From assembly GCA_030374765.1 (NCBI GenBank), contig JARGXX010000080.1, positions 930,001 through 994,000 of the forward strand: a DNA stretch of 64,000 bases. Direction: 5' to 3'. The notes below the pieces were generated by a model. It made no database searches and had not been told where the DNA came from. It worked only from the letters and a program-made list of their open reading frames with translations. Source of the stretch: Agarophyton chilense (Eukaryota; Rhodophyta; Florideophyceae; Gracilariales; Gracilariaceae). Made by a program: the position numbers and the translations under genes. Numbering within the stretch: position 1 is the stretch's first letter; each line of letters opens with the position of its first letter. This document shows positions 2,534-28,850 of this stretch, in pieces.

Positions 2534-3327
2534 TGAAGTGCAACCCTCGAGAGGGCCGTTTTCCAGGACTTGGTTGTTTTTCCGCCTCGGGCGATACTTG
2601 TGAGATCTATGAGTAATACCGCTACTAGCGGGCTGGCGTAGCCAGGTGTATACGCGTTGTACGCGAAGTGCACCGGCGGCCGTGCGCCGTGGCCCCGATT
2701 CGGGTGTGACTTACCCACGTGTACCACGGGTGGCCCAGGACAGGTTGGCACAGCATAGCTGGATATTTCTCTATTTATTTAGCTTTATTACACTAGGTTA
2801 GGGAGCTCTCTGCAGTAGTCTACACTATATAGTGCCAGGGCGATCTCGCTCTGACACTCAGTAAACCTCCCCAACCAGGGTTCTTGGCTCTAAGTCTTTT
2901 TCCGCTTTCGCGAGTCTTCCACACTCTACGGAGGTGAAGCCGCGTTACTAACGGTAGACTTATCCACCCTGCGTCAACAGGAGACTCACCGCTGTTAGCG
3001 TGTATATCTTTCATACCACTGCCGTGTTCTCGCCCCAGTATTGGGTTTGCTACATATTTCTTTTGGCTCTCGTGGCCCATGCCCCCGATCGCCCCCACTG
3101 GGTGGTCCCCCCTTTATCACTTGCCCACTCCCGTGGAATACAGCTCATACCTGGTCTGCTCCCTTCTAGCATCCCGCACTCTCCCCGCTTGGCGTGCCGG
3201 TGAACCTCGGCCTTACACCCCGACTTAGTCGTGTTCACTCCGGAGAGGCTCCGTCGCCGTGCTACCCTCCTTTGAGGAAGACTCGGACATCTTCGTGTGT
3301 TTCCGCCGCCCTTGGCGTTGCACTACA
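2534..3327 (+). repeat. Element A 5' LTR
   Basis: Begins TGAAG and ends CTACA (TG...CA ends) and is 794 nt, the same length as the copy at 13513-14306. A palindrome CCCTC-GA-GAGGG lies at 2544-2555, close to the start. An AT-rich stretch around 2770-2795 with TATTTAT-like sequence is a candidate promoter or polyadenylation region. The left and right copies differ mainly by G-to-A or C-to-T changes. Confidence 0.95.
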
Positions 3328-5642: not shown

Positions 5643-6588
5643 GGCGTCCCCAACAGTGAGGTTGACGACGCCCGAGGCGTCTCCGCCTCGCTCCCCGGTC
5701 ACAATCCTCACGAGGAAATAGGCCGTCTCAGACGTGGACTCTGAACACTTTGGTGTTCTACGTCGACCGTGGAAACGTGTTCTTAACCGCCGGTTCCCGG
5801 ATAGAGTCTTAGTAATGGCCAAGCGCAATTACAAGGTGTATGCCGACCTTGGCCTTTCTACCCAGTTTATGGTTCGAGTCCTTACTGTTTTGGACACAGG
5901 TGCTGGTCCGAATTTCATCGTGGAGTCGCTGCTGCCCCCGCCCTTGCGGTCTCAGATCCGCCTTGGCGTGGCGCCCGACGTCGCGGACGTGAATAACAAC
6001 CCGTTGTCAACGGTTGGAACCGTCGCTCTCGTCGTTCGCTTGGGCTCCTTCGTGGTGAAACTCGACTTTATTGTATGCCGGAAATTGGCTGCCCCCATCA
6101 TCTTGGGATGTGACTTCTGTGACAGATTCGTTGACGCCATAAGGCCCCGCTTAAAGCGTGTTGAGATGGAAGACGGCTCGTCGGTCCCGATTGTCCGTCG
6201 TCCGCTGCGGCGTGCCTCCAAGAAGCACGTACCGCTCCCTGCCGCGCAGGAATCTCCACCCGCTTCTCGGGAGTCTACCAAGCTCCGCGTGGCTGCGTCT
6301 GTCCGAATCCCGCCAGAGTCCCAAGTATGGGTGCGTGTCACTTCCCGTCAACACGGTTTACGAGTCATTCAGCCTCTCTTATCTCTGTACGATGGATATC
6401 AACTCGCCGTGGCGAATGGAGTCGCGCAGATTGTCCCAGACAAGCCGTTCACCGTGCTCGTTGCCAATCTGGGCTCAACCCCCCAGTCACTGGTGAAAAA
6501 CCAAGTTATTGGATCGGTAATGCCTCACCCCACCGCGATGGTCCCCACTAGGCTGACCGCTGCCGAAGTCCTCGGTCTCGTTCACTCT

Positions 6589-6602
6589 AAGGAGGGGGAG
6601 GA
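6589..6602 (+). other. Internal polypurine tract 1, element A
   Basis: AAGGAGGGGGAGGA repeats the core string of the 3' polypurine tract inside the pol frame (coding K-E-G-E-E). The same string is at the matching place in element B (19700-19713). Confidence 0.5.
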
Positions 6603-9600
6603 AGCTGCCGTCCAATCACCGAATGATTCGGAATTGCAACCTGCCGAAACAGAAAAGAAGCCCGTTCCGACGAGTTCCGACCGGGTAGACCCCGTGAAAG
6701 AACTCGAGGAACTCGACCTCGGTCATGTACCGGAGTCACACCGTGAAATTCTGCGTGAGATGTTACGGGAGTTTACCACAATGTGGGATGGCTCTCTTGG
6801 TCAGATAAATACAACGGAACACCGGATAGATTTATTGCCGAACACCCTACCGGTGGCTCAACACCCTTACAGGGCAGGCTCCAAGGCTCGAGAAGAGGAA
6901 CAGTTCCAAGTGGACAAAATGCTCCGAGCTGGAGTGATCGAACCGGTTCAGTGGCCGTGGGCATCCCCAGTGGTACTGGCTCCGAAACCCGATGGGTCCT
7001 GGCGCTTTTGCATCGACTACCGTCGCTTGAATGATGTTACCGTCAAGGACGTGTATCTGATCCGACGAATGGATGAGTACATCGACTCTCTCGGCACTGC
7101 TACCGTGTTCACGGCTTTGGACGCCAATTGGGTATATTGGCAGGTTCCCGTTAGGGAGGAGGACCAAGATAAGACTGCGTTTGTCTGTCACTCGGGACTC
7201 TACCGTTTCAAATGGATGCCTTTTGGTCTAACCAATGCTCCCGCTACCTTTCAGCGTGCTATCAACATTTTGTTGGCCCGCTTTAAGTGGCGTACTTGCC
7301 TCGTCTATTTGGACGATATCATTGTATTCTCAGACAATCTGGATGACCATCTCACCCAAGTCAGGGACATAATGACCACGCTACGTGAAGCTGGAATAAC
7401 CCTCAAACTGAGGAAATGTGTGTTCTTTACCGATACTGTGAAGTATCTCGGGCACATTATCCGTCCTGGACGTTTAATGATCGAGGAAGCTCGAGTGAGG
7501 TCCCTTCGCAAGACGAAAGAACCCGCTACCCAGACGGAACTGCGCTCCTTTCTAGGATTGGTCAACGCCTACCGACGGTTTATCCCTAACTCCGCTGACA
7601 TCGCGGCCCCCTTGAACGCGCTTCTGCGGAAAGGTCAACCACCTAAACTGGACCCCTTTACGTCCGCCCAGACGGATGTTTTTAACTCCCTTAGGGAGGC
7701 TATCACATCAGCACCGATTTTATCGTTACCGAAACCCGGACTACCGTTTTCCGTGGACACGGACTCTAGCGACTACCAGGTAGGCTGTGCGCTCTTTCAA
7801 ACTACTCTCGAAGGAGAAAGCAAACCCATTGGGTACTGGTCACGCTCGCTCAATGTCCACGAGCGGAACTACTCCGTGTCGGAGAAGGAGTGCCTCGCAG
7901 TTGTGTGGGCCCTCTCTACACTCCGCCCCTACCTCATGGGTGTGCACTTTACCGTTTACACGGATCACTCGTCCCTACGATGGCTCATGACCATCTCGGA
8001 GCCGTCAGGCCGCTTAATGCGTTGGAGACTCCGCCTCGCGGAATATGACTTTGAAGTGATCTATAAGAAGGGCACTCAGAACGCGCAAGCGGACGCGCTC
8101 TCGCGTTTACCCACGAATGGGGAAGCTCTAGCCGTCGATGACGAGGATATACCTTGCTTCGTCGTAGACGATGGAACACCGGGAAACCCGGATTGGTTAC
8201 ACGATAAATGGAACGAAAGCCCGGAATCAGACGATGATATTGACGCATTGCTCGTCTCGGACGATTCAAAGAAACCCCCGCCGGGTGATTTTGTGCCGAT
8301 ACCCCCGGAGGAGATGGTCAGAGAACAGCAGGGTGACCCCTTCTGTACGAAGATTCGCGCCTGGCTTAATGGCGGTGCACAACTCCCTTTCGAGGTGAAC
8401 GATCTTGGATACCTCGTCAGGACGGTTCAGTCATCACCACAAGTCGTGGTGCCGCATACTCTACAGTCTAGAGTTTTGCATCTATCGCACTATGCGAAAC
8501 TTGGTGGACACGCCGGTGGACGGAAACTCTACATCACTTTGCGAAGGAACTTCTACTGGCCCGCCCTGGCGGTGGATTGCTACGAAACGGTGCGGTTTTG
8601 TACCGAATGTGCTAAGAATCGGGTGAAACTTCGCAAGTACTCAACGAAGTTGAAACTATTCCCAGCACGGGCTCCTCTCGAGTTTGTCGCCATTGACATC
8701 CTCGGCGAGCTCCTCACCACACGACGTGGGCATAAGTTTTTACTCGTTATCACGGATCGTTTCTCAAAACTGGTTCGGACCGTACCTTTACGGAAGATAT
8801 CCGCTTTCACGGTTGCACAAGCATTTGTAACCCATTGGGTATTCGTCTACGGCCCGCCGGTTAATCTTCTATCCGATAACGGAAAACAGTTCGCATCGCG
8901 ATTCTTCGAGGACGTGTGCAGGATTCTTGACATCAAGAACCTGTTCACAACGACCTATCAACCCCAGTGTAATGGGTAAGTGGAGCAATTTAACCGAACG
9001 CTATTAGCGTCTCTCCGTTCTTACGTTGCCGACCACCCAAAGACATGGGATTTATATACCGACGCCTTGACGTTCGCGTACAATACGCAGGTACACCGTA
9101 CTACGGGCTTGACTGCATTCGAACTGGTCTTGTCCTGCCCTCCGCCCGCTGTCGCGTTAGAACCCCAGCCCACGCTGGATGCGTTCCCTTCCGTGAAGGA
9201 TTATCGCCACAGGTGGAAAGAGTGGCTTACGAAGCTGATCCCGGTCGCCCGAAGCTCGATGGCTCGTGCCCAAGCTGCTTACAAGCGTGATTTCGACTCT
9301 TGCGTACGCGGTAAGGCCGCGCCAATCAAAGCCGGTGACTTCGTGTTCGTCCGTAAGGAGTACTGGAACCCTGAAAAGGAAAAGAAGCACAAGCTTTCTT
9401 CCGTTGCGGACGGTCCTTACAAGGTCATTTCGGTGAAAGACGACACCATCGTGGTGGAAATTGTCGACGCTCATGAGCGGATCTCCCACGACCGCGTTGT
9501 AATCGCCCCTCCACCGACGTTGAAAGTAACCGAAATGGGTCAACAATCCCTCTCTGAGGATGATGGTGCTCGGCACACAACGGTGACTCAGCCCACTGCC

Positions 9601-9763
9601 GTGGTTTCCAAACCTTCTGCGTTACCACACCCTACCCGGGGACTCTCTGACTTGCCGATCTTATCGGACCAAGGCCAGAATGGCCTCTCTTCTCTCACGC
9701 CACGGCGCGGTGTCTACCCCCGCCCGTTGGGCGTTTCAACCACTTCCCATGCCGCTCCGTCTC

Positions 9764-9778
9764 AGGAGGGGGAGGAGG
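9764..9778 (+). other. Internal polypurine tract 2, element A
   Basis: AGGAGGGGGAGGAGG lies in the long linker of pol (Q-E-G-E-E). It matches 22859-22875 of element B in both sequence and relative position. Confidence 0.5.
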
Positions 9779-11662
9779 CTCATAACTCTCGTCGAGAGAC
9801 GGAAATCGCTTCGTCGCGTCATGACAACCGTGGTGCACGGACTCCTGGACACACCAGCAAGAAGAACGGTGACCCGGACGTCCCGTCTACCGACGTGCCA
9901 TCTCCACATCTGCGCGCTACAGCCGTTGCTGAACCCTCTATGGGAAGCGCCACCGCATCTGCGTCTGACCGCACTCCCCACGGGGACTCTACTCGACAGG
10001 ACGCACCACGTAGTGGAAACCCCCTCGCCAAAGCGAAACCGAAATCGTCGCAGAATGCTGTTCGCCCTCGCGATACTGGACCGGCTAGGCCGTCGAGCGT
10101 TGACCCGCAGCCCGTGGGTCACGGTTCGTCGACACCAGCTACGCTGGAAAACTTAGAGAACGCCCTCGCAGGCCCCTCTAGGCCGACTCGATCGGAAGTG
10201 GTCCCTCGTACTGTACGGCAGGGCACACCAGCTAAGCCGGGCAAGCACACCGTAGCAGACGGGAGATTAACACCCAGCACGCTTGATGCTGGTTCAGAAC
10301 CCGCGCGAAGTGGCGGACGCACTCCGAGTGTCTCGGTTGACCCCGACAGCGTTGTCGAAGGCGCACCGGTCACCCCGGAGAATGTGCCCGTCCAGGACGG
10401 AAGCACCTCGTCGCCGAGTGAAGTTGAACCCTCGAAAGGGATAGTTGAGGACGAACTCGCTCCCCGCAGAGGTTCCTCGCCGCGCACTTTGCCGCCCGTT
10501 GGTGAGGAAGGCACGGTTGACCCGGAGTTGCACGCCCGTCGCGGTACTGTGTCGCTTAAGCGAGCAGACATACCGGCAGCGCCGTTGCACACGCCCTCAC
10601 GTGAGGAGGCGGAACGCAGCACTGCGCGGAGTACTCCCAGCCATCAGCCGGACGTGTCACGTGACCAGACGACACCCGGCTCGGGAGATACGCCAATCAA
10701 CGCCCAAGGCGGCTCACCCGGCAAGGCACGACGGCCCGTGATGAAACCGCCTCCCGCTTCAAGTCCAGCACCGTCACGACGGATTTCACCCCGACGACTC
10801 GCGGAACGCGACCGCGAAACCCAGCCTTGGGATGAGTCCGCGTTCCCCCGAAGGGTAGCCTCTGCACGAGAACTCTCGGAAAGCATTTCGACCCAAAAAC
10901 TGGGAGAATTACCCAACGGGAAGGCCTCCGGCCGAAGCCGTCGAGCTGACGCTCTTCGTCATGACTCCTTGGCGGAAGCAACCCGCCAAGCGGCCAAGGC
11001 AACCCGGAACCCGGTTTGCTCCCCTACCCAGGGCATGGAAAGGCAACGCCAACCCATGGACCCCTCGGGGGAAGGGCACAGTAACCCACACGCACCTGCG
11101 AACGTACACCGGTTTGGTTCGGTGACGAGTACACCGCAAGGGCGGGAAGTCTACGAGAAGGAGTTCGTGGTCGACCACATAGTGCAGCACTCATACCATC
11201 CGGATGGTTATATTCAATACCTCGTCCGTTGGTACGGTTTAGGACCCGAATGGGATTCGGATGAGCCAATGGAACATCTCCCACGTTCGAAGGTGGTGTC
11301 ATATCACCGCAGAACGCGGGCGGGAATCCCGGCATCGGTTGTTAAAGCCCAGGTGGGATAACACCCACCTCGGTGGAAGAGAAAAGAGAAGTAGATTTGC
11401 TTGAGAACAGGTTAGTGAAGGAAGGTTTTTGGTTACACAAGTCACTTGGTTTTTATTCGAAGCTATCGATGGAATACCGAGCACTCGGGATACTACTCTA
11501 AGTCACAAGGGAAACTCCCCATCGGGATCGCGTGCCCCGTCACGGGTTCGGCTCACCGCCCCCGGGTTGGATACCTCTCTGGAGGCGGGTGATCAAGGCC
11601 TCGCGCATCGCGGCAACATCGCCACTCGCTGCGTTGGTCCCCAGCCCCACCTGTCGCAGGAA

Positions 11663-13243
11663 CTAGGAGATCACGGCCGCTTGACCCGCCGGAGTGGAGC
11701 TCGCATCGCCTGGGGCGGACGCCCCACCACTTGGGAGATTCACCGGTGGAACCGGATGTGGTCCAGCTACCACGTACTCCGACCCAGCCCCCGCGGGGTT
11801 ATCCAAACCTGCGTAAGGCGTGTCTGGCGTCCCCGCGTTAGAGGGACCTTCCGCTTCGGATCCCTCGACCTCCGCCTCGGCGTACGCTTCCCCGTCGTCG
11901 GGTTCGTTGTCCACCATTGGATCGTCGCCGTCGTAGACCTGGTAATATTCATCCGCGTCCACGAAACCGATGGGATGCCCCTCGGGGATATGGCGTGGTG
12001 CAAACCGGAGTTCGTTCGCTTCCTCCGCGGAGATTTCGTGCCCTTCCCAGGGGTCAAAGTATACGAAATCACCTCCCAAGGGAGTACGCCTTCCTGGTGA
12101 CAGGTCCTGACCCCGCCTACCCACGGTGCGCCCGCTTTGTTCAATCGGAACGGCGGTCCAGTCCAACTGGTCGATGTAATCGAGAAGACCCGCCACTTCC
12201 CCGGCGTTGGTTACTCCACCAAGTGGGATGCTCAGGTCCAGGCTGCGAATCGCGGACCTCAACCGGAACGGGAGGAACCACAGTCTGTACTGGTCATACA
12301 CCTCCCAGAGGAGGAACACCGCCGCGCGGACTGCCCATTCGGTAATCACCACGGACCACAGTCCGGACTCGGGATCCTCGATGAGGTACGAACCGTAATA
12401 CGTGATGACGGGTGGCAGCTCGATGTAACAGCCCCGGCAGGCCTCGAGGTTCGACCACAATGGTGGAATGAGGACATAGCGACCCCGTCGGTCGGCCACG
12501 CGAAGGCGTTCGATCTCCACGTTCTGATACGGGACCAAATACCCGAATCGGGATCGTGCTCGACGCTCGAAGCGGATCAGGGCGAGGAAGTTGGCCCGCG
12601 CAAGTCGACGCATGTAGCGGAATTCTGCCCGGATAATCGGTTGCGTCTAGCACATGGCTTCTTGCCGTGCTATCGGGATGCCCCTCCACGAGAGTGTTTC
12701 CAAACCCGCCAGGCGGTCGACGTAACCAATCTCACCTTGAGTGCGGTAAAGCCGAATGTCGGTGCCGAGACCATCGGGGATGGGATATTCGAAAGGAGCC
12801 CGGCGAAGCCGTTGATGGCCAAGAAGGACGAAGGCCGCATGAGCGGAAGCCGAGGTTTCCCTACCCCAGCGCGCCACAGCGTGGACCAGAACCGCTACGC
12901 GGCGTCGCCAATCCAACGAAGTTGTCGCCACGGCCGGAATATCGCCCGGAAGCATCCGGTTTCCATCGGTGAACATCGCTATGAGCGCTTCTTTTAACAC
13001 CGCAATGGGGTGGAACCACGGCGCAAGCCGGAGAACGGACGCATGATGCCCAGGATGGCGCCCGACAAGCATGTCGTATGGCGGCCACCCTCTCAGGGGG
13101 AGCATTCCGTACGGAGCAGCAGCCGCGTTCGCGATAGGAATCTGCGGCGCAGCCGATGACGCGCTTTGCGGAAGCAGAACGGACCGGAAGCCGGAGAAGT
13201 ACCCCGCAGGGAGACGGTTGGGTTGATTGTTTTGGTTGCTCAT
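11663..13243 (-). pseudogene. Element A antisense gene, broken by one stop
   Basis: A long frame on the strand opposite to gag-pol, between the pol stop and the 3' LTR. From the ATG at 13243 it would encode 526 codons with a single in-frame TAG at 12647-12649, where the homologous B protein has Trp. The protein is clearly related to the B antisense product (24401-26128). Shared stretches include GYFSGF, APWFHP, RSRFGYLVPY, VYFDPWEG and GHPIGF. The C-terminus is acidic (DGDDPMVDNEPDDGE) and low in complexity. I recognise no domain, signal peptide or clear membrane segment. Its stop lies 301 bases from the convergent pol stop. Confidence 0.7.
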
Positions 13244-13500
13244 CGGTGAGCAAAGAGGCCGGATGACCGGAAGAGGAGACCGGCGAAGCGGGAGACGATG
13301 CCGAGGAATCGGAGGACTGGCACGCAAGGATGCGGATTCGGTTGAGATGGAACGTTGAGAACGGTTGTTGCCAGGAGACTGGAGTCTTGCTGCACTGCGT
13401 TTCTTGGCACCGGATGAAGTGGATCCCAGCGAGCTGGTTGCACTCTTATGCATTCGTCTCGGCGCGTCGCCCACCATCGCGGATGTCGTACTCGCGCCTC

Positions 13501-13512
13501 AGGAGGGGGATA
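13501..13512 (+). other. 3' polypurine tract, element A
   Basis: AGGAGGGGGATA directly abuts the right LTR, the standard position for the plus-strand primer. Confidence 0.85.
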
Positions 13513-14306
13513 TGAAGTGCAACCCTCGTGAGGGCCGTTTTCTAGGACTTGGTTGTTTTTCAGCCTCCGGCGATACTTGTGAGATCTATGAGTAATACCG
13601 CTACTAGCGGGCTGGCGTAGCCAGGTGTATACGCGTTGTACGCGAAGTGCACCGGCGGCCGTGCGCCGTGGCCCCGATTCGGGTGTGACTTACCCACGTG
13701 TACCACGGGTGGCCCAGGACAGGTTGGCACAGCATAGCTGGATATTTCTCTATTTATTTAGCTTTATTACACTAGGTTAGGGAGCTCTCTGCAGTAGTCT
13801 ACACTATATAGTGCCAGGGCGATCTCGCTCTGACACTCAGTAAACCTCCCCAACCAGAGTTCTTGGCTCTAAGTCTTTTTCCGCTTTCGCGAGTCTTCCA
13901 CACTCTACGGAGGTGAAGCCGCGTTACTAACGGTAGACTTATCCACCCTGCGTCAACAGGAGACTCACCGCTGTTAGCGTGTATATCTTTCATACCACTG
14001 CCGTGTTCTCGCCCCAGTATTGGGTTTGCTACATATTTCTTTTGGCTCTCGTGGCCCATGCCCCCAATCGCCCCCACTGGGTGGTCCCCCCTTTATCACT
14101 TGCCCACTCCCGTAGAATACAGCTCATACCTGGTCTGCTCCCTTCTAGCATCCCGCACTCTCCCCGCTTGGCGTGCCGGTGAACCTCGGCCTTACACCCC
14201 GACTTAGTCGTGTTCACTCCGGAGAGGCTCCGTCGCCGTGCTACCCTCCTTTGAGGAAGACTCGGACATCTTCGTGTGTTTCCGCCGCCCTTGGCGTTGC
14301 ACTACA
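13513..14306 (+). repeat. Element A 3' LTR
   Basis: A 794-nt copy of 2534-3327 that starts TGAAG and ends CTACA. It is preceded by the polypurine tract and followed by the GATCT duplication. The palindrome near its start reads CCCTC-GT-GAGGG at 13523-13534. Confidence 0.95.
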
Positions 14307-15546: not shown

Positions 15547-16468
15547 TGTAGAGCAACGCCCAGTTAGGGGATACTTGAAGATGCAACTCATAGAATGAGG
15601 GTTGAACCCTCCGAGGGTTATGACTATGATCCCCTCTAAGGTGTGCTGAGGTGGCACTGTTTTCTGGTTAGAGTTCGCCTAGGAAGGGAAGATTCGGATG
15701 GCCCATGGTTGGATTGGCCCCGTGATACACGTGGCTTAATTTCGGCACCGATTTTCGGATATTTGTTAGAACGTTGGACTTTTGGGCCCTGACAGTGGGA
15801 TCTCCACGTGTATGGCCCTGAGCAGGTGTGCACCACGGTAATTAGTAGAGTTTAGTTAGTGGGCCCTACTTAGGGAGACGAGATCTGACAGTCCGAAGCT
15901 CGGAGTAAATGGGAACCAAGGTTGGTCTTCGATACCTTTAGAGGTTCTTCGTCGCCATCGTTTCGGCCTTACAACCCGGAACGGGCTCTGGTTAGCAACG
16001 CCTGCGTAGGGACACGACTCCACTTGGAGAGTGCCCACGTTTGGATTCCGTGCAACCACCCCCTTGGGACCGCTCAGACGACCTGCGTGCACGATACCCC
16101 GTGGGGGTTCTGCTTACTTGTTGCGTGCTTTTTGTGTTTCCTTTTGAGGACAGGTTTTCGCCCCTGTATTGGGTTTCTTTTGTTGTTTCGCCCCTTTTCG
16201 GGTTCTCGGGTCCGGTGCCTGTTAGTGCCCGACCCTCGCCCCGTTTTTCCTCTTCGCCGGATTTTCCCCTATTCTTTGGGATACCCATACCCATTACCGA
16301 CCCAACGGTTTCTACACCTCACCTCCGTCGGTACTGCCGGAATCCCCCGTGGGAGTTACACCCCACACTACGGGTGGACGGAGGGCTCTGTCTATGAGTC
16401 TGCCTCCCCCGGGGAGCAAGGCTTCGAACACCTTGAGAGCACTTCCCGTCGCCGGGTTTTGCTCCACA
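15547..16468 (+). repeat. Element B 5' LTR
   Basis: Starts TGTAG and ends CCACA (TG...CA), 922 nt, nearly identical to 26340-27262. The palindrome AACCCTC-C-GAGGGTT lies at 15605-15619, about 58 bases in. Long open frames seen here are repeated in both LTR copies and show no protein features. Confidence 0.95.
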
Positions 16469-19713: not shown

Positions 19714-22700
19714 CACTGCCGAAATCGCGGAAGACGGTGAGCATACGACTGCAGCTCCACACGCTGAACGCTTTAAACCTCAGGAGGTTACGGCCCCTAT
19801 CACAGGAGCAGACCAGACGGATCCTGTTCAGGAATTGGAAAAATAAGATCTCAACCATGTACCCGCATCTTATCGGGAGAAGCTGAGGCACATACTTCGT
19901 GAATTTACCCCCATGTGGGATGGTTCCCTTGGAACTATTGGGATTACAGAACACCGCATCGACTTGTTACCGAACACTCTGCCTATTGCCCAACACCCTT
20001 ACAGGGCTGGACCGAAAGCTCGGGAAGAGGAGAAATCTCAGGTGGAGAAGATGCTTAAAGCGGGCGTAATTGAACCTGCCCAGTCCGCTTGGGCCTCACC
20101 AGTGGTGTTAGTTCCGAAACCGGATGGATCGTGGCGTTTCTGCATCGATTACAGACGCCTGAACGAGGTAACCATTAAGGATGTGTACCCGATCCCTCGG
20201 ATGGACGAATACATCGACTCCTTTAGGAGCGCTACTGTTTTCTCTACCCTCGACGCCAATTCGGGCTATTGGCAAGTCCCTATTAGGGAGGAAGATCGAG
20301 ACAAAACGGCTTTCGTGTGTCATCAAGGACTTTTCCGATTCCGGAGGATGCCTTTTGGGTTGACAAATGCCCCCACAACGTTTCAACGGGCGATAGACAT
20401 TCTGTTGGCTCCCTTCAAGTGGAGGACGTGTCTAGTGTATTTAGACGACATTATTGTCTTCTCCAACAACCTGGATGACCACCTCGAACACGTCAGGGAC
20501 GTAATGAAGATACTCCGCGACGCGGGAATCACCTTGAAACTCAAGAAGTGCGAGTTTTTCACCGATTCGGTTAAGTATCTGGGTCATATCATCCGTCCCG
20601 GACAGCTTTCAATCGATGAAGTACGAGTGAAATCCTTGAAGGAAGCAAAACACCCGAAAACTGAAACGGAGTTGCGATCCTTCTTAGGTCTGTGTAACGT
20701 GTATCGCCGATTCGTCCCGAACTTTGCGGATATTGCCACCCCCCTCAACAGGCTCCTGACGAAGGGACAACCAGTTGAACTGGTACCTTTTGGCGACGCG
20801 GAAGCGTCTGCCTTCACGGCACTGGTGAATGCCGTAACATCACCGCCAATCTTGGCTCTACCCAATCCTGGGCTCCCTTACGAAGTGGACACCGATGCTA
20901 GTGCAAACCAAGTAGGGTATGCACTGTTCCAATCCTCTGAGGATGGTGAACGTCACCGTATTGGGTACTGGTCACGTTCCCTGAATGTCCATGAAAGGAA
21001 CTACTCGGTCTCCTAGAAAGAATGTTTAGCCGTTGTGTGGGCCTTAGCTACACTTCGCCCCTATCTGATGGGTACTCGTTTCAAGGTCCATACGGACCAC
21101 GCATGCTTGCGTTGGCTCCTGGAAATGTCCGAACCCTCGGGCCGCCTTATGCGCTGGCGTCTCCGACTGTCGGAATTCGACTTTGAGATCCTGTACAAGA
21201 AAGGGAAGCTGAACACTCAGGCTGATTCACTATCCCGCTTGGGAACCACAGAGGAAACGGAACCCCACGAGGACGATGACATCCCATGTTTTATGGTATC
21301 GGACCTCGAGGGAGGAGCTCAACCGCTGACGGATGATGTTTGTGACGATATACTCGTCAACGAGAGTCTGGATTCGCCGACCGGCTCTTTTATACCTATC
21401 TCTCCAGAGGAGATGATACGCGAGCAACAGCTCGACCCATTCTGTACACGGATTCAGGCTCGCCTCAACGGAGGAATTCAGTTACCTTTCGAGGACGACG
21501 ATCAGGGTTACCTAATCAGGACCGTTGAACCTCGCCCGAGGATGGTGGTGCCGCACACCCTACAACAGAGGGTATTACACCTCACTCACTATGTGAAGGT
21601 TGGCGCCCACCCCAGGGGAAGAAAACTGTACCTCACGTTGAGAAGGGACTTTTACTGGGCGGCAATGGCATTCGCTTGTTATGCCGTCAGACGGGCCTGC
21701 GCCAATTGCGCCAAGAATGACGTCAAACTTCGGAAGCACTCTAAGAAGTTGACGCTGTTCCCGGCACGGGCTCCACTCGAATTCGTGGCCATAGACATCC
21801 TAGGGGAGTTTATCAGGACGCTTCGAGGTCATCGTTATCTGCTTGTCATTTCTGACAGATTCTCTAAGCTATCGAGAACTGTGCCGCTGAAGCGGATCAC
21901 CGCCGCTACCGTCGCGCAAGCGTTCGTGACCCATTGGGTGTTCGTATATAGACCGCCGGTGCAGTTGTTATCCGACAACGGAGGGCAATTCGCATCAAAG
22001 TTCTTTCAGGATGTATGTCGAATCCTTGATGTAAGGAATTTATTTGTTACTACGTATCACCCTCAGGGGAATGGCCAGGTGGAGAGGTTTAACGGAACGA
22101 TACTCAACGCTTTGAGATCGTATGTTGTGGATCACCCCAAAAATTGGGACTTGTACACAGACGCTATCACGTATGCATACAACACCCAGGTACATCGGGT
22201 TACATCTTTATCCCCATTCGAACTGGTACTGTCGAGGACACCGCCGCCGGTCGCAATCGAGGCTCAACCGACGCTGTCGACGTACCCGTCACCGGGATCG
22301 TACCGAGAAGCCTGGAAGGAGTAACTTACGAAGATGGTGCCGATAGCCCGGAAAGCAATGGACAAAGCTCAACGTGCCTACAAGAAGGACTTTGACAATC
22401 GGGTTCGCAAACCTCTACCTCAGGTGGAGCCCGACGACTTCGTCTTCCTTCGAAAGGAATACTGCAATCCTGAAAAGGAACGTAGGCACAAGCTTTCGCC
22501 AATTGTGGACGGACCCTATCGTGTGGTTTCTGTAGACCCGGACACGGTGGTATTGGATATCGCTAACCGCCACGAACGGATCTCCAGGGACCGCATCACA
22601 CGAGCGCCCAACCCAAATGTGGAAGTGGTGTCGGCACCAACGCCCTCCACAGGGGATGATTCAACGGAAGTTAACCCGTCAGGCGGAGATTCGAACACCC

Positions 22701-22875: not shown

Positions 22876-24400
22876 CTTAGTTCCTTCGCAGGACGATGTT
22901 TCGGCGTCAGCCAGTCGCCCTAACAGGGAATCTAGTTCTCACTGTGAGACGGCGAGCCCGACCGAGCCGGCGACAGAGAAGTCACAACCCCAGCGTATGG
23001 CTAGCGACATCACCGCCGACCCAGCCGAGCACGACGTCAGAAAAGATGACGAAACCCCGCCTAGGGAGAGTCGTGTGGAGAACTCCGCACCCGGAACGCC
23101 TACAGAGCCGACGATCGTCCGCCGCCGCGGACGAGACACTGAGGTGTCGCACACTCAAACCCCGCTTTCTCGGGAACGAGCTGTGTCAGCGGACCCGCAC
23201 GGGGAAGATCTCGACGACGAGGTTGACCAAATTCGGCTCTCGGTTATGAAATGGAAATAGGAACTCCTATGGAGACACTGGAACCCTCAGGAATGGGAAA
23301 GAAATGAGTGAGACCCGTCGGGGACAGCTCAGGAGAGTGCTAGCGCTTGTCGAAAGCGCCACCTCACATCTGCATATGCAGATTTTCCCGCACAAGGAAC
23401 GGTCACCCCACACGGGGCGCCCGCGCATTTGTGTGGCACACGTCGAATGGCACCGAGCCAATCAAAAGGCTCTGACGACCAACCGTCGCGCAAACCGCCT
23501 CCGTCGCACGGCGCGTTGCACGGGAGCAACCTTCCTTCCCGTAGCTCGGGTTGACGCTGAAGTCTTACCCCTCCCTGAGATTGGAGACGCTACCGCGTCG
23601 CGGTTTCTCAATCGTCACGGAATCTAAGAACACCGTTGTTATCGGGAAGATCTCAGCTTTAAGAAGAACTCAAAAGTGGGCCGTTTTGACTCCGTAGACG
23701 GAAGTTATAACGTAGCCCACAGGCCACTCCGCGCCGTTTGGACGAAGTGCTGAGACCCGCTCGCAACACGGAAAAGAACCCACCGGGGTGTGTCTAGAAT
23801 CTACGTTGACACCCTCAAGGGAACTAGAGCGTTCCAAGATGGAAGAGAAACCCGAACAGGGAAAAGTGTACCCGCAGGAATTCGTTATCGGTCGCATTGT
23901 GCGTCACATCTACACCCCCGAGGGAGAAGTTCGCTACCAAGTCCGATGGTACGGATTCTCGCCTGATGAGGATACAGTGGAACCCATTGAGCACCTTCCG
24001 AGGTCTAAGGTTTTATCCTATCACCGACGCGCTCGGGTAACCTTGCCTCCAAATCTGGATCGTGCCCAAGTCGGGTAAGCCACCACGGGAACTGGTGTGG
24101 ATGGGACCTCGAAGTGAGGAAGATGTTGGACCTCTGAAGAGGAATTGAGGAGAGTATCCCGAAGAACACGTATTGAGAGGGAATGTCTACTGGCCCTCGG
24201 CCTACCGCCGTTAACCGGGGAACACAGCACCGGTTATCGGGACAGTTTATGATGAAAAAGGAAAAGAAGACTCACGAAGTGGAGAAGAAGATTAAGAAGA
24301 AGATTGGACCCTAGGAAGGAAGAAGAAAAGAAGTTATGCAAATATCAGAAGTTTACTACTGTCGCCAAGCTATGGACTCTACAATTGCCCGAAGGCGGAA

Positions 24401-26128
24401 CTACGGAAAGCCCGAGGAGGGACCTGCCTCGCCGTTGCGATTCTCACCCTGATGGTACGCCGAGGCGAAAGCCAACATCTGGCTCACATCCGTCATACCC
24501 GGGGGAATCGGAATGCCCGCGTTCACGAGGCCTTGTCGCACACTATCCGCTTGCGGAGTGGCAACAGGCGCCTGCGCAAGGGTGTTCACACCCCACCTGG
24601 GGGGAGCAGATGGACCGCCACCGGATGCATTCGCCGCCGCAGCTGAGGTCCCTCCCACTGGTTGGAAGGGTGCAGATGGCTCCACAGGGAGTACTCCACT
24701 AGGAGCTGGCATGTCGTTATCCAACGCTGGATCTTCTAGGTCTACTGGAGGCTCATACTCGTAATCGTCGGTATAAATGAACCCCTTCGGGTGTCCCACC
24801 GGCATCGGTCGAGGCGAGTCCATCAGCGCCCGTGCTTGCGCCACGCTGATGCGAACCCCTTCGAAGGGATTGTAATAGACCCAGTTACCGGAGCCCGGAT
24901 CGTACCGGCCAGGAGACTTGTCTCGCGTGGATCCTTCCCCTGCAGGCTGATTTTCCACTGGAACTCGATCCCATTGGGTGTTGTCGATCACGTCGAAGAT
25001 TGGATACAGGTCCTGCACGTTGCTGGCCGAACCCAACGCTGGGACAAGGTCGATCTGACGCATGATGGTCCGTAGCATCTGAGGAATATACCAGATACGG
25101 AAATGGTCATGAGCATCCCAGAGGAGGTGCGCCTCTACGCGGGCTGCCCACTCGGCTGCAACGAGGGCCCAGTATCCCGAGTTCGGTTCGTGCATCAAAC
25201 GAGACCCGATATAGTAGATGCACGGGGACAGTTCAGCAAAGCACCCTCGGGGGACCTCGACCTTACTCCACCAAGCTGGAAGGGGCACGAATCGCCCAAC
25301 CTTCGCCGTGTTACGGATACGCTCCAGTTCCACGTGAGGATACGGGACAAGGAACCCGAAACGGGAGCGCGAGCGGCGCTCGAAGCGCACGCGTCGATCG
25401 AACCCATACTGGGTAAACTGCCGTTGAAGGTACCTGAATTCAGCCCGAATGATGGGACGAATCCATTGGAGCATATCTTCTCGGAGAGGAAAACCCGGTC
25501 CGCGGAACTCGGCTTCGGGAAAGGCTGCCAGGTTATCCCCGTAGGAGACCTCACCGTACGTGCGGTAATAGGCGACATCGAACCCGTACTCCGGGGGAAC
25601 CAGATGGTCAAAGCGGGACCTCTCCAATTGCTGGTAGGCCAGAGCCGCCATCGCTGCGCGCGCCTTGTCCAGGGACTCCCCGCGACCGCGGTATAGATAC
25701 TGAGGCTCTATGGCTACCCGCGCCCTCCAATCGGGAGAACGTACAACCTCGACAGGTAGGCCACCCGGCAATAAGCCGTCCTCCACGTAGGAGTCGATGA
25801 GCTCATCGTCGCGAAACGCTGTCGGGTGGAACCACGGCGCGCGGGAATATATCACCGGATCGGTAAGGGGACTCCACCTTCGAAAAGATTCGTTTGAGAT
25901 CCAACCTCTGGAGTTTGCTACCAAGGGCATCGCATGAGCGGAGTTCCACGCTACCGCGTTAATGTCCAAATCCTCCGGAGGATGTCGGTTGCTCTCCGAG
26001 GCGGAAGGTTCGGTACCTGACGGAGCCGCATCAAAACCGGAGAAATATCCACCCTGCTGGGGAGCTTCGTTGTCCGCCGGCGTGGAGGCCGACGGCCCCG
26101 AGAGTGGGTTCATGACGTATGGGTTCAT
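24401..26128 (-). CDS. Element B antisense protein, 575 aa, unknown function
   Basis: An uninterrupted 575-codon frame on the strand opposite to gag-pol. It starts at ATG 26128, just inside the 3' end of the internal region, and stops 322 bases from the convergent pol stop. Homology to the antisense frame of element A spans most of its length. Conserved stretches are GYFSGF near residue 30, APWFHP near 95, RSRFGFLVPY near 260, a Trp-rich region (PAWWSK, GYWALVAAEWAARVEAHLLW) near 280-345, VYYNPFEG near 420, GHPKGF near 450 and a Pro/Ala-rich acidic C-terminus. I recognise no family. Gag-pol of the same copy has at least six lesions, yet this frame has none. Antisense genes at this position are known in some plant Ty3/gypsy (Tat-lineage) elements; any relation is untested. 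Confidence 0.7.
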   Translation of the reverse strand: MNPYVMNPLSGPSASTPADNEAPQQGGYFSGFDAAPSGTEPSASESNRHPPEDLDINAVAWNSAHAMPLVANSRGWISNESFRRWSPLTDPVIYSRAPWFHPTAFRDDELIDSYVEDGLLPGGLPVEVVRSPDWRARVAIEPQYLYRGRGESLDKARAAMAALAYQQLERSRFDHLVPPEYGFDVAYYRTYGEVSYGDNLAAFPEAEFRGPGFPLREDMLQWIRPIIRAEFRYLQRQFTQYGFDRRVRFERRSRSRFGFLVPYPHVELERIRNTAKVGRFVPLPAWWSKVEVPRGCFAELSPCIYYIGSRLMHEPNSGYWALVAAEWAARVEAHLLWDAHDHFRIWYIPQMLRTIMRQIDLVPALGSASNVQDLYPIFDVIDNTQWDRVPVENQPAGEGSTRDKSPGRYDPGSGNWVYYNPFEGVRISVAQARALMDSPRPMPVGHPKGFIYTDDYEYEPPVDLEDPALDNDMPAPSGVLPVEPSAPFQPVGGTSAAAANASGGGPSAPPRWGVNTLAQAPVATPQADSVRQGLVNAGIPIPPGMTDVSQMLAFASAYHQGENRNGEAGPSSGFP

Positions 26129-26269
26129 TCCATTGAGAGGGCTGGTTGAGACTGCTGTTGCGAGAAGTTGCTTATCGCCGAAAGTCGGAGGAGTAGAAAA
26201 AAAGTTGTACCGATGTGCCGGTTTTGTGGCGGTCCTCAGAAGTGGTGAAGGACCCCATTGGGAAAGAAG

Positions 26270-26277
26270 TATATATA
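26270..26277 (-). promoter_or_regulatory. TATA-like box upstream of the antisense gene
   Basis: TATATATA about 142 bases upstream of the antisense ATG, between the gene and the 3' LTR, so it could drive the antisense transcript. It is self-complementary, so direction is not fixed by the motif. I see no equivalent in element A. Confidence 0.35.
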
Positions 26278-26326
26278 GTGACCGGAAAGCGAGACACCCG
26301 CGGCTCGGAATGTTCTTCCTCGTCTT

Positions 26327-26339
26327 AAGGAGGGGGAGA
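26327..26339 (+). other. 3' polypurine tract, element B
   Basis: AAGGAGGGGGAGA directly precedes the right LTR. Confidence 0.85.
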
Positions 26340-27262
26340 TGTAGAGCAACGCCCAGTTAGGGGATACTTGAAGATGCAACTCATAGAATGAGGGTTGAAC
26401 CCTCCGAGGGTTATGACTATGATCCCCTCTAAGGTTTGCTGAGGTGGCACTGTTTTCTGGTTAGAGTTCGCCTAGGAAGGGAAGATTCGGATGGCCCATG
26501 GTTGGATTGGCCCCGTGATACACGTGGCTTAATTTCGGCACCGATTTTCGGATATTTGTTAGAACGTTGGACTTTTGGGCCCTGACAGTGGGATCTCCAC
26601 GTGTATGGCCCTGAGCAGGTGTGCACCACGGTAATTAGTAGAGTTTAGTTAGTGGGCCCTACTTAGGGAGACGAGATCTGACAGTCCGAAGCTCAGAGTA
26701 AATGGGAACCAAGGTTGGTCTTCGATACCTTTAGAGGTTCTTCGTCGCCATCGTTTCGGCCTTACAACCCGGAACGGGCTCTGGTTAGCAACGCCTGCGT
26801 AGAGACACGACTCCACTTGGAGAGTGCCCACGTTTGGGTTCCGTGCAACCACCCCCTTGGGACCGCTCAGACGACCTGCGTGCACGATACCCCGTGGGGG
26901 TTCTGCTTACTTGTTGCGTGCTTTTTGTGTTTCCTTTTGAGGACAGGTTTTCGCCCCTGTATTGGGTTTCTTTTGTTGTTTCGCCCCTTTTCTGGTTCTC
27001 GGGTCCGGTGCCTGTTAGTGCCCGACCCTCGCCCCGTTTTTCCTCTTCGCCGGATTTTCCCCCATTCTTTGGGATACCCATACCCATTACCGACCCAACG
27101 GTTTCTACACCTCACCTCCGTCGGTACTGCCGGAATCCCCCGTGGGAGTTACACCGCACACTACGGGTGGAACGGAGGGCTGTGTCTCGGAGTCTGCCTC
27201 CCCCAGGGAGCAAGGCTTCGAACACCTTGAGAGCACTTCCCGTCGCCAGGTTTTGCTCCACA
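26340..27262 (+). repeat. Element B 3' LTR
   Basis: A 923-nt copy of 15547-16468 with a one-base insertion and about a dozen substitutions. The palindrome is at 26398-26412. It ends CCACA and meets the coding sequence of relic C with no target duplication. Confidence 0.95.
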
Positions 27263-28850
27263 GCCTGTAGCGGAAGAAGACCAAGACAAAACCGCATTTG
27301 CGTGTCACGCCGGTCTCTACCGTTTCAAAAGGACGCCCTTTGGCTTAACGAATGCCCCGTCTACTTTCCAGCGTACTCTGGACATCTTGCTCTCAAGATA
27401 AGAGTGGAAGACTTGTTTAGTCTATTTGGACGATGTGATCATCTTTTCCCAGGATGTGGAAAGCCATTTACGGCATGTCGAGGAGGTCCTCAAAGCACTG
27501 CAGAGCGCAGGCATCACCTTGAAATTCAAGAAATGCGAATGGTTCGCTGGCACCGTCCAGTACTTAGGACATGTGATCAAGCCAGGACAGCTTGCCATCC
27601 AAGAGGCACAAACAGCGGCTCTCCGCGAAGTACAACCTCCGTCGACACAGAAGCAATTGCGTTCTTTCCTTGGCTTGTGCAACGTCTACCGACGATTCGT
27701 GCCGCGATACTCGCATATAGCGGCACTGCTCAACGCAAAGCTGCGTAAAGGACAACCAGTACAGCTGGAACACTTCAGACAAGCTTAAGTGGAAGCGTTC
27801 GACACGCTGAAGACAAAGATTATTACAGCCCCAGTCTTGGCGCTGCCCATCCCCAACCTGCCATACTCAGTGGATACCGACTCTTGCGAGTACAAAGTAG
27901 GGTGTGCCCTTTTTCAAACACACCCTGATGGTGAACGCAAACACATTGGTTACTGGTCAAGATCGCTGAACGCAGCTGAGAAGAAGTATTCAGTTTCAGA
28001 AAAGGAATGCCTTGCAGTCGTTTGGGCTCTAACCACATTGCGACCGTATCTCCAAGGAGAACGTTTTACCGTCAACAAGGATCATTCGTCTCTACAATGG
28101 TTACTGTCATTCACAGACCCGTCTTGTCGTCTCACAGGATGGCGCTGGCGCCTTTCTGAATTCGATTTCGAAGTGAAATATAAGAAGGGATTGGCCAATG
28201 TCCAAGCTGACGCGCTATCGCGACTCAAAACACTGGGCGAAACCCAAGGCGAAATCGATGAAGAGATACCTTGCTTCTACATGGAGACCCATTCACCATC
28301 TTTTGAAGAAGAGGAACAAGAGACCCTTGATGATTATTCGGATGCAGACCCGTTCCTTGCATTAGCAGACACTGACCCTTCAGCTCAACTCGAGCGAATC
28401 TCGTGCACTGAGCTCCTCAATGAGCAACACGCCGATACGTTTTGTGAGTCGTTACGCTCTCGTCTTAACGGGGGGGAGGAGCTCCCCTTTTCACTCGATT
28501 CACGAGGAATACTGTTAAGACATGTCGAAAAGCATGATCAAATCATGATTCCACACGTCTTGAAGAGTCGGGTACTCCATCTGGCTCACTACAGCAGGCT
28601 GTCTGGTCATCCAGGATGAAAGAAGTTGTTCATGACTCTAAGAAGAGATTTTTACTGGCCTACTTTGGCAATGGACTGCCATGCTACAGTGAGGTTGTGT
28701 ACAACATGTCACATTTGAGTGTATTGCAATTGATGTGCTGCACTGTATCGCGTCCTTTACATGCCGTGCAGAGCAGCAATTTGTGTCTGTATGAGGTCAT
28801 TTTGATGTCTTTAAATGGATTATTACATCTTCTGCTGTCTACAGAAGCGC
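27263..28850 (+). pseudogene. Relic C: truncated Ty3/gypsy pol fragment
   Basis: Begins in mid reverse transcriptase (PVAEEDQDKTAF) directly at the LTR of element B. It continues through YLDDVIIFS, RNase H (YSVDTDSCEYKVG, GYWSRSLN) and the integrase zinc finger, and fades near 28850. In-frame stops: TAA 27399-27401, TAA 27786-27788, TGA 28617-28619. After the finger (TTCH) about 20 codons are missing and the core resumes as ECIAIDVLH. It is a family distinct from A and B, and it has no LTR, gag or protease here. Confidence 0.88.

Follow-up and report, generated by a model that had tools for sequence, protein, structure and literature searches.

Why do two retrotransposons whose long terminal repeats (LTRs) are so unlike carry homologous genes at the same place and on the opposite strand? 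The question is raised by a stretch of 64,000 nucleotides from the red alga Agarophyton chilense (contig JARGXX010000080.1, positions 930,001 to 994,000; hereafter the window), which is part of a 79.76-Mb assembly of 135 contigs and contains two Ty3/Gypsy elements, A then B, arranged head to tail. In B, a fully open antisense gene of 575 codons plus stop occupies positions 24401–26128 on the minus strand; in A, a 645-codon antisense frame occupies positions 11543–13477 on the same strand. Our analysis indicates that this antisense frame is almost certainly a selected gene of the elements. As a fuller explanation, we consider it reasonably probable that a Ty3/Gypsy lineage with a chromodomain, probably one of Gracilariales red algae, has conserved this frame as an accessory gene, and that it would be expressed from its own antisense mRNA as a soluble protein acting in trans.

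Homologous antisense genes in two dissimilar elements

Both frames lie opposite the gag-pol strand, between the chromodomain on one side and the polypurine tract and 3′ LTR on the other. The encoded proteins are 38% identical over 475 residues (E 1e-86), and their alignment contains all four stretches that an earlier note on this DNA had reported as shared, namely GYFSGF, APWFHP, RSRFG-LVPY, and GHP-GF. Alignments place a conserved core, rich in W, Y, and R, at approximately residues 95–464 of the B protein (24736–25846, minus strand); within family B, this is the least diverged part of the frame. The LTRs, all on the plus strand, pair closely within each element (2534–3327 and 13513–14306 in A, 99.1% identical; 15547–16468 and 26340–27262 in B, 98.6% identical) and have little in common between elements, the best A–B match being 23 bp long (E 6e-5), in agreement with the same note. 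Its frame length for B also holds, but its values for A, about 526 codons with a single stop, need correction: the window copy has stops at codons 277 and 605, and an end at 11663 corresponds to the second of these. Whole-length A copies are present elsewhere in the genome.

Copies and families across the genome

The core motif W-x-R-P-x-x-R-A-E-F has 537 exact matches in the assembly, and its reversed control has none. Similarity searches, whose lists contain the best-scoring copies and whose counts are lower bounds, returned at least 76 scored copies with B as query, each at least 93% identical, and at least 126 copies with the second half of A as query, 84 of them at 90% identity or above and 42 at 54–62%. 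Sampling ten of these 42 distant matches revealed three further families, C, D, and E, while three more motif variants (families F, G, and H; L049–L051) are decayed copies. At G000:C22:1511108-1529414, a stretch of less than 20 kb holds three A-type antisense copies in the same orientation; two of these score identically, and the cluster suggests local duplication.

In the copies sampled, families A–E share one layout, in which a chromodomain-ended pol is followed after 180–390 nt by the antisense stop, the antisense frame, a purine tract, and the start of an LTR. The first antisense ATG lies about 20–210 nt from the purine tract or LTR start. Beside the antisense start, the G-rich purine tract reads AGGAGGGGGATA in A (13501–13512, plus strand) and D, with variants in C, in E, and in B (AAGGAGGGGGAGA, 26327–26339, plus strand). 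Beyond this tract lies the LTR in A and B; C, D, and E have a sequence there that resembles the start of the A LTR. The antisense start codon is uncertain in A, C, D, and E, which contain an upstream ATG near the purine tract and an inner ATG nearer the conserved GYFSGF stretch.

Copies located through their reverse transcriptase (RT) also carry the gene. Among 22 B-type RT copies on contigs C1–C16, 15 have it on the opposite strand 3.1–4.6 kb downstream, three of these placements being taken from rough match midpoints. Five of the other seven copies were fetched, and all five contain the gene: three at whole or nearly whole length, one up to the edge of the stretch, and one with a large internal deletion. 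It was likewise found in five of six more RT-found copies. The gene is present in nearly every B copy examined.

The earlier note had singled out the open B frame because its own gag-pol is broken, but this state is ordinary: 47 of the 76 scored B copies are stop-free, and the density of stops in the antisense frame (33 in 76 × 575 codons) is like that in RT (28 in 111 × 367 codons), both counted in the best-scoring copies only. Because the two densities are alike, single copies are evidently not kept open after insertion. Instead, the antisense gene then decays like the rest of the element, and selection works on replicating lineages. Domestication as a host gene was rejected, since the 537 motif matches and the RT-like stop density oppose a pattern of few copies kept open, although a lone divergent host copy could escape the scoring of best candidates.

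Selection on the antisense protein

For codon comparison, we used nine copies from five families, chosen for an open antisense frame. Of ten copies from families C, D, and E, four were left out (L040, L041, and L048, in which the frame is cut short, and L047, which has a longer alternative start), and the F, G, and H copies were excluded as decayed. Between families, the core shows 40–65% protein identity, with proportions of synonymous differences (pS) of 0.60–0.77 and of nonsynonymous differences (pN) of 0.24–0.42. The corresponding ratios of nonsynonymous to synonymous substitution rates (dN/dS), which are rough because dS is near saturation, are 0.10–0.27 where estimable; dS could not be estimated in 7 of 32 pairs. 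In the least saturated pair, C–E, the ratio is 0.22 (dN 0.288, dS 1.29), and differences at codon positions 1, 2, and 3 amount to 0.26, 0.22, and 0.51. Ratios near 1, which the earlier note had named as a sign against a gene, were thus not seen between families, and the bootstrap intervals of pN/pS within families also stay below 1: 0.57 (0.45–0.75) in 23 B copies, 0.66 (0.48–0.90) in 8 RT-chosen B copies, and 0.70 (0.53–0.93) in 10 A copies.

Could the open frame be a by-product of sense-strand codon bias or GC content? The region is indeed GC-rich (about 60%), and, of the other frames, the one opposite and in phase contains the fewest stops; both facts fit this explanation. Yet there is no sense coding at this place, the other five frames of the nine copies contain 3 to 28 stops each, and both the homology and the third-position excess follow the antisense frame. 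Together, the alignments, the codon comparison, and the dip in divergence described below, which is seen in 23 copies and again in RT-found copies, refute the by-product explanation, which the earlier note had named as a possible objection and which we regard as extremely improbable.

Within family B, divergence dips over the antisense frame. Among 23 copies, the mean pairwise distance is 0.026 in the frame, compared with 0.053 and 0.051 in the spacers and 0.054 in the end-of-pol linker; the chromodomain and the LTR give 0.031 and 0.033. As these copies had been picked by antisense similarity, which lowers frame divergence and could itself produce the dip, the comparison was repeated on 11 RT-found copies. 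Five of these (L055–L059) were fetched because the gene was absent from the match lists, so that any bias leans against a selected gene. Here, the frame gives 0.034 (8 copies, with L056, L059, and L061 left out because too little of their frame is covered) versus 0.058 and 0.064 in the spacers (9 and 10 copies).

Other points speak against selection on the frame. All copies in the codon comparison were pre-selected as open. In the RT-found copies, the chromodomain value of 0.029 is slightly below that of the antisense frame (the LTR part gives 0.041). Within families, substitutions are mostly private to single copies and near neutral, and one sense frame has equal pN/pS (0.517 versus 0.575; 0.665 versus 0.664), which weakens the within-family test taken alone. 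This equality arises because the third positions of the two frames coincide and are the same bases; the sense frame in question contains 12–28 stops. Since within-family pN/pS is not frame-specific, our argument rests on the between-family comparison and the local dip in divergence: the core is conserved while silent sites are saturated, and this, together with the dip, argues for a selected protein-coding gene.

The same evidence bears on the view that the antisense RNA is the functional product, acting through double-stranded RNA or small-RNA feedback, with the open frame being incidental. This view draws some support from the antisense promoters and transcripts described for several LTR elements (PMC7264820). 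It is opposed by the conservation of the core against saturated silent sites, by 84 invariant protein columns in 11 sequences, and by the occurrence of relatives as proteins in other sources, and we consider it very unlikely.

Architecture and relatives of the antisense protein

In the alignments, a variable N-terminal tail precedes the W/Y/R-rich core, which spans about 370 residues; an acidic linker then leads to a short C-terminal piece that contains a conserved L-x3-G motif and is encoded in B at 24401–24562 on the minus strand. Basic residues outnumber acidic ones in the N-terminal tail of A, C, D, and E, but not of B. The 84 invariant columns, which span the five families and two foreign proteins, include APWF, YRT-GE, RP--RAEF, R-ER--R-R-G, GC--E, and EW; their number falls to 16 once partial and distant relatives join the alignment.

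Protein searches scored the best 8000 candidates each and were non-exhaustive, as P0002 appeared in one search and was absent from another. They returned the relatives P0001–P0007 and, in addition, P0008 (E 2.9e-5, covering 30% of the query), which may be a distant relative and was included in the wider alignment without being relied on. Two of the eight are named, the hypothetical proteins BWQ96_10156 (P0002) and BWQ96_03215 (P0004) of Gracilariopsis chorda, which is itself a member of the Gracilariales. P0002 is 41% identical to the B protein, and its best scored match in the A. chilense genome is 44% identical; P0004 is 56% identical to the searched part of D. Both belong to the same protein family as the antisense protein.

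The earlier note knew of no family for this protein, and the curated libraries that we searched likewise gave none. In Pfam, none of 11 members matched a family even with the threshold set at E 10, and six further relatives, searched at E up to 1, yielded nothing but sub-threshold Ish1 and E3_binding scores in P0006. No match to the family was found in NCBIfam or PHROGs, or among phages, plasmids, viral contigs, and prokaryote genomes, and PDB sequences gave no lead with single proteins or whole-protein profiles. The C-terminal tails of two relatives score against Pfam Ish1 (putative nuclear envelope organisation protein), P0006 with E 0.0029 and P0005 with E 0.28, both below the cut-off; the other eight C-terminal tails, including that of B itself, have no Ish1 match. 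The scores may be a weak hint of a nuclear module. DUF6127, which appeared in two tails (E 0.024 and 0.028), was also below the cut-off and was set aside. A profile of the eleven tails alone matched the leucine-rich-repeat PDB chains 4r58 (E 2.3e-8, 24 positions) and 4r5c (E 0.00094), as well as three weaker chains. By its E-value, the 4r58 match is not due to chance, but we leave it unexplained and do not build on it, given the 24 positions, the short eleven-tail profile, and the repetitive nature of the matched proteins.

The rate at which the protein changes raises the question of whether it might serve structure or spread. Identity between A and B is 43% in the antisense core, compared with 75% in RT, 66–68% in integrase, 58% in the protease region, 55% in the chromodomain, and 57–72% in gag, and the antisense gene is among the fastest-evolving parts of the element, a common trait of accessory and surface genes. 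Such divergence, which exceeds that of the named gag and pol domains, would fit an envelope-, movement-, or capsid-like protein that merely happens to be antisense, and the richness of the core in W, Y, and R was counted in favor of such a protein. However, the divergence of the pol linker is similar or greater (47% identity over the 152 residues that align, the remainder being unaligned), and a simple hydropathy scale detected no membrane-spanning stretch in ten proteins, the highest 19-residue mean being 1.54, in a stretch with charged residues. The empty Pfam searches of the 11 members also speak against such a role, as does the comparison with Gag, which was rejected as a source of the protein since no similarity to the B Gag frame was found. 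The gene further differs from envelope-like genes in lying after pol in antisense rather than sense orientation, and antisense transcription would separate the protein from the sense genomic RNA. We therefore consider a structural or spread protein unlikely.

Comparison with known elements

The nearest known arrangement is found in plant Tat-lineage Ty3/Gypsy elements, whose antisense open reading frames (aORFs) of the aORF-3R type include Grande GENE23 and those of RIRE2 and Retand, the last with a TRP28 domain; a regulatory role has been suggested for them (PMC11963269, PMC7264820). As far as anatomy shows, the algal antisense gene would work like the Tat aORFs. Its protein, in contrast, lacks Transposase_28 (PF04195) and is unrelated by profile, and its host is a red alga rather than a flowering plant. 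Tat elements contain a second, archaeal-type RNase H, and chromodomains are described as confined to chromoviruses (PMC6317226), whereas pol of A (5734–11361, plus strand, from the protease region to the chromodomain) has one RNase H and ends in a chromodomain. Specifically, the A pol frame that starts in the protease region contains one RNase H region (overlapping PF17917 and PF17919) followed by integrase, with no second RNase H at E up to 1, and the next A frame matches only SH3 and Chromo in Pfam. The view of the earlier note that a chromodomain-bearing element of this kind is separate from the Tat case is thus borne out.

By domain order, the elements look like chromoviruses, with RT, RNase H, integrase, a chromodomain ending pol, a polypurine tract, and LTRs. 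In B, the first three of these domains lie in several broken frames at 19913–22324, and the chromodomain lies at 23839–24078 (Pfam Chromo, E 1.3e-7, 31.9 bits versus a cut-off of 25.1), all on the plus strand. A Pfam chromodomain ends pol in all of A–E and scores above the curated cut-off in B, C, and D. The elements differ from chromoviruses in having one conserved antisense protein common to five families and, in A, in the long linker that precedes the chromodomain. Because chromodomain elements of Ectocarpus are said not to be chromoviruses (PMC12477816), a chromodomain alone does not settle membership. Extra open reading frames have been reported in 3372 Ty3/Gypsy elements, and their most prominent conserved domains occur in Ogre, Retand, and Athila, all of which are non-chromoviruses (PMC6317226). 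Among the open-licence papers searched, no title or abstract beginning mentions such a gene for elements of red algae or elements with a chromodomain; within this literature and the libraries searched, the suggestion that the gene may be undescribed holds.

Retroviruses provide a second parallel in HBZ of human T-lymphotropic virus 1 (HTLV-1), an antisense gene near the 3′ LTR that encodes a basic leucine zipper (bZIP) protein. Like HBZ, the algal gene lies near the 3′ LTR and may be transcribed from the LTR; unlike HBZ, its product of about 600 residues contains no bZIP or other Pfam domain, and no sequence relation was found. Antisense genes of HTLV are also mentioned in the literature (PMC11963269, PMC7264820). 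In plant Tat elements and in some retroviruses, an antisense gene in the interval from pol to the 3′ LTR is already known; the protein family itself is unmatched in the libraries searched. That a chromodomain lineage has a conserved but unrelated antisense protein suggests that the arrangement itself is favored, and the algal elements offer an independent system for asking why. Since one small genome holds hundreds of copies belonging to at least five families, direct tests of selection, expression, and function are feasible.

Possible expression and function

In B, the spacer between the antisense ATG and the LTR (26129–26339) is a candidate antisense promoter region. It contains TATATATA at 26270–26277, about 145 nt upstream of the antisense ATG; TATA(T/C)ATA is retained at this place in 19 of 23 B copies, and the surrounding spacer diverges fast. 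As no such box is established outside B, an antisense start inside the LTR is equally possible. Just inside the LTR start, inspection by eye showed a short GCCCTC-N-GAGGG-type inverted repeat in A, C, D, and E, and a weaker form in B (window positions 13513–13560 and 26340–26400, and copies L039 and L042–L046), although the LTRs of A and B are otherwise unalike. Either strand might use this repeat as a signal.

We propose that a separate antisense mRNA would be made from the gene, with its promoter either in the stretch between gene and 3′ LTR or within the LTR, and that translation would yield a soluble protein of approximately 575–645 residues with a small C-terminal helical module. This protein may act in trans on the nucleic acid or chromatin of the element, in transcription, RNA export, nuclear entry, or escape from silencing; such action has been proposed for the plant GENE23/TRP28 antisense proteins and is known for retroviral ones. 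A soluble, trans-acting accessory protein produced from a promoter near the 3′ LTR appears most likely, and the gene probably helps the elements to spread. Several features lead us to prefer a nuclear and regulatory role: the gene is antisense, its product has no membrane segments and is unlike Gag, and GENE23 and the retroviral antisense proteins offer an analogy. We put this role forward tentatively, as a possibility somewhat short of even.

Alternatively, the protein could act as a brake, limiting the copy number of its own element by interfering with sense products in trans, as the copy-number-control factor p22 does in Ty1. Antisense output could rise with copy number, and the genome contains hundreds of copies. 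Against this, p22 is derived from Gag, which the antisense protein does not resemble in B, and a pure brake would gain little from being carried for long by several families. We judge this explanation distinctly unlikely.

Several observations weigh against our preferred reading of a nuclear, trans-acting accessory protein of a chromodomain lineage. Concerning the class of the elements, the chromodomain scores of A (23.4 bits) and E (21.1 bits) fall short of the cut-off of 25.1 bits, and the LTR status in C, D, and E is taken from likeness to the start of the A LTR. One B-type RT copy, L061 (G000:C95:1477354-1480354), has only an LTR piece at the expected place of the gene and is possibly a deleted or non-autonomous copy. 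With respect to function, the TATA-like box is established in B and in no other family, the Ish1-like score of the C-terminus is below Pfam's cut-off, and no nucleic-acid-binding domain was found in the protein. The antisense transcript and protein are themselves predicted from sequence, and the regulatory role is argued by analogy.

A more far-reaching version of the preferred reading is that the gene was gained independently of those in plant Tat elements and retroviruses, as a new family with a novel fold, possibly from an unknown virus, and that it serves as a nuclear switch of expression or silencing. We regard this as conceivable and would back it only with hesitation. If true, LTR elements would have acquired a regulatory gene in antisense orientation at this place for a third time, by convergence.

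Further features of the elements

In A, the linker between the SH3-like region of integrase and the chromodomain (about 9440–11160) comprises several hundred residues and is rich in P, S, and R. A sense-strand copy of family E, L054, contains RT, RNase H, and chromodomain in one frame of 797 residues with no Pfam integrase match between them, and is perhaps a non-autonomous form that lacks integrase. The sequences flanking B, GCTTT and GCCTG, form no clear target-site duplication. From the end of the B 3′ LTR, a fragment of a third element with RT and integrase extends over 27249–28709 and is 59% and 48% identical to B.
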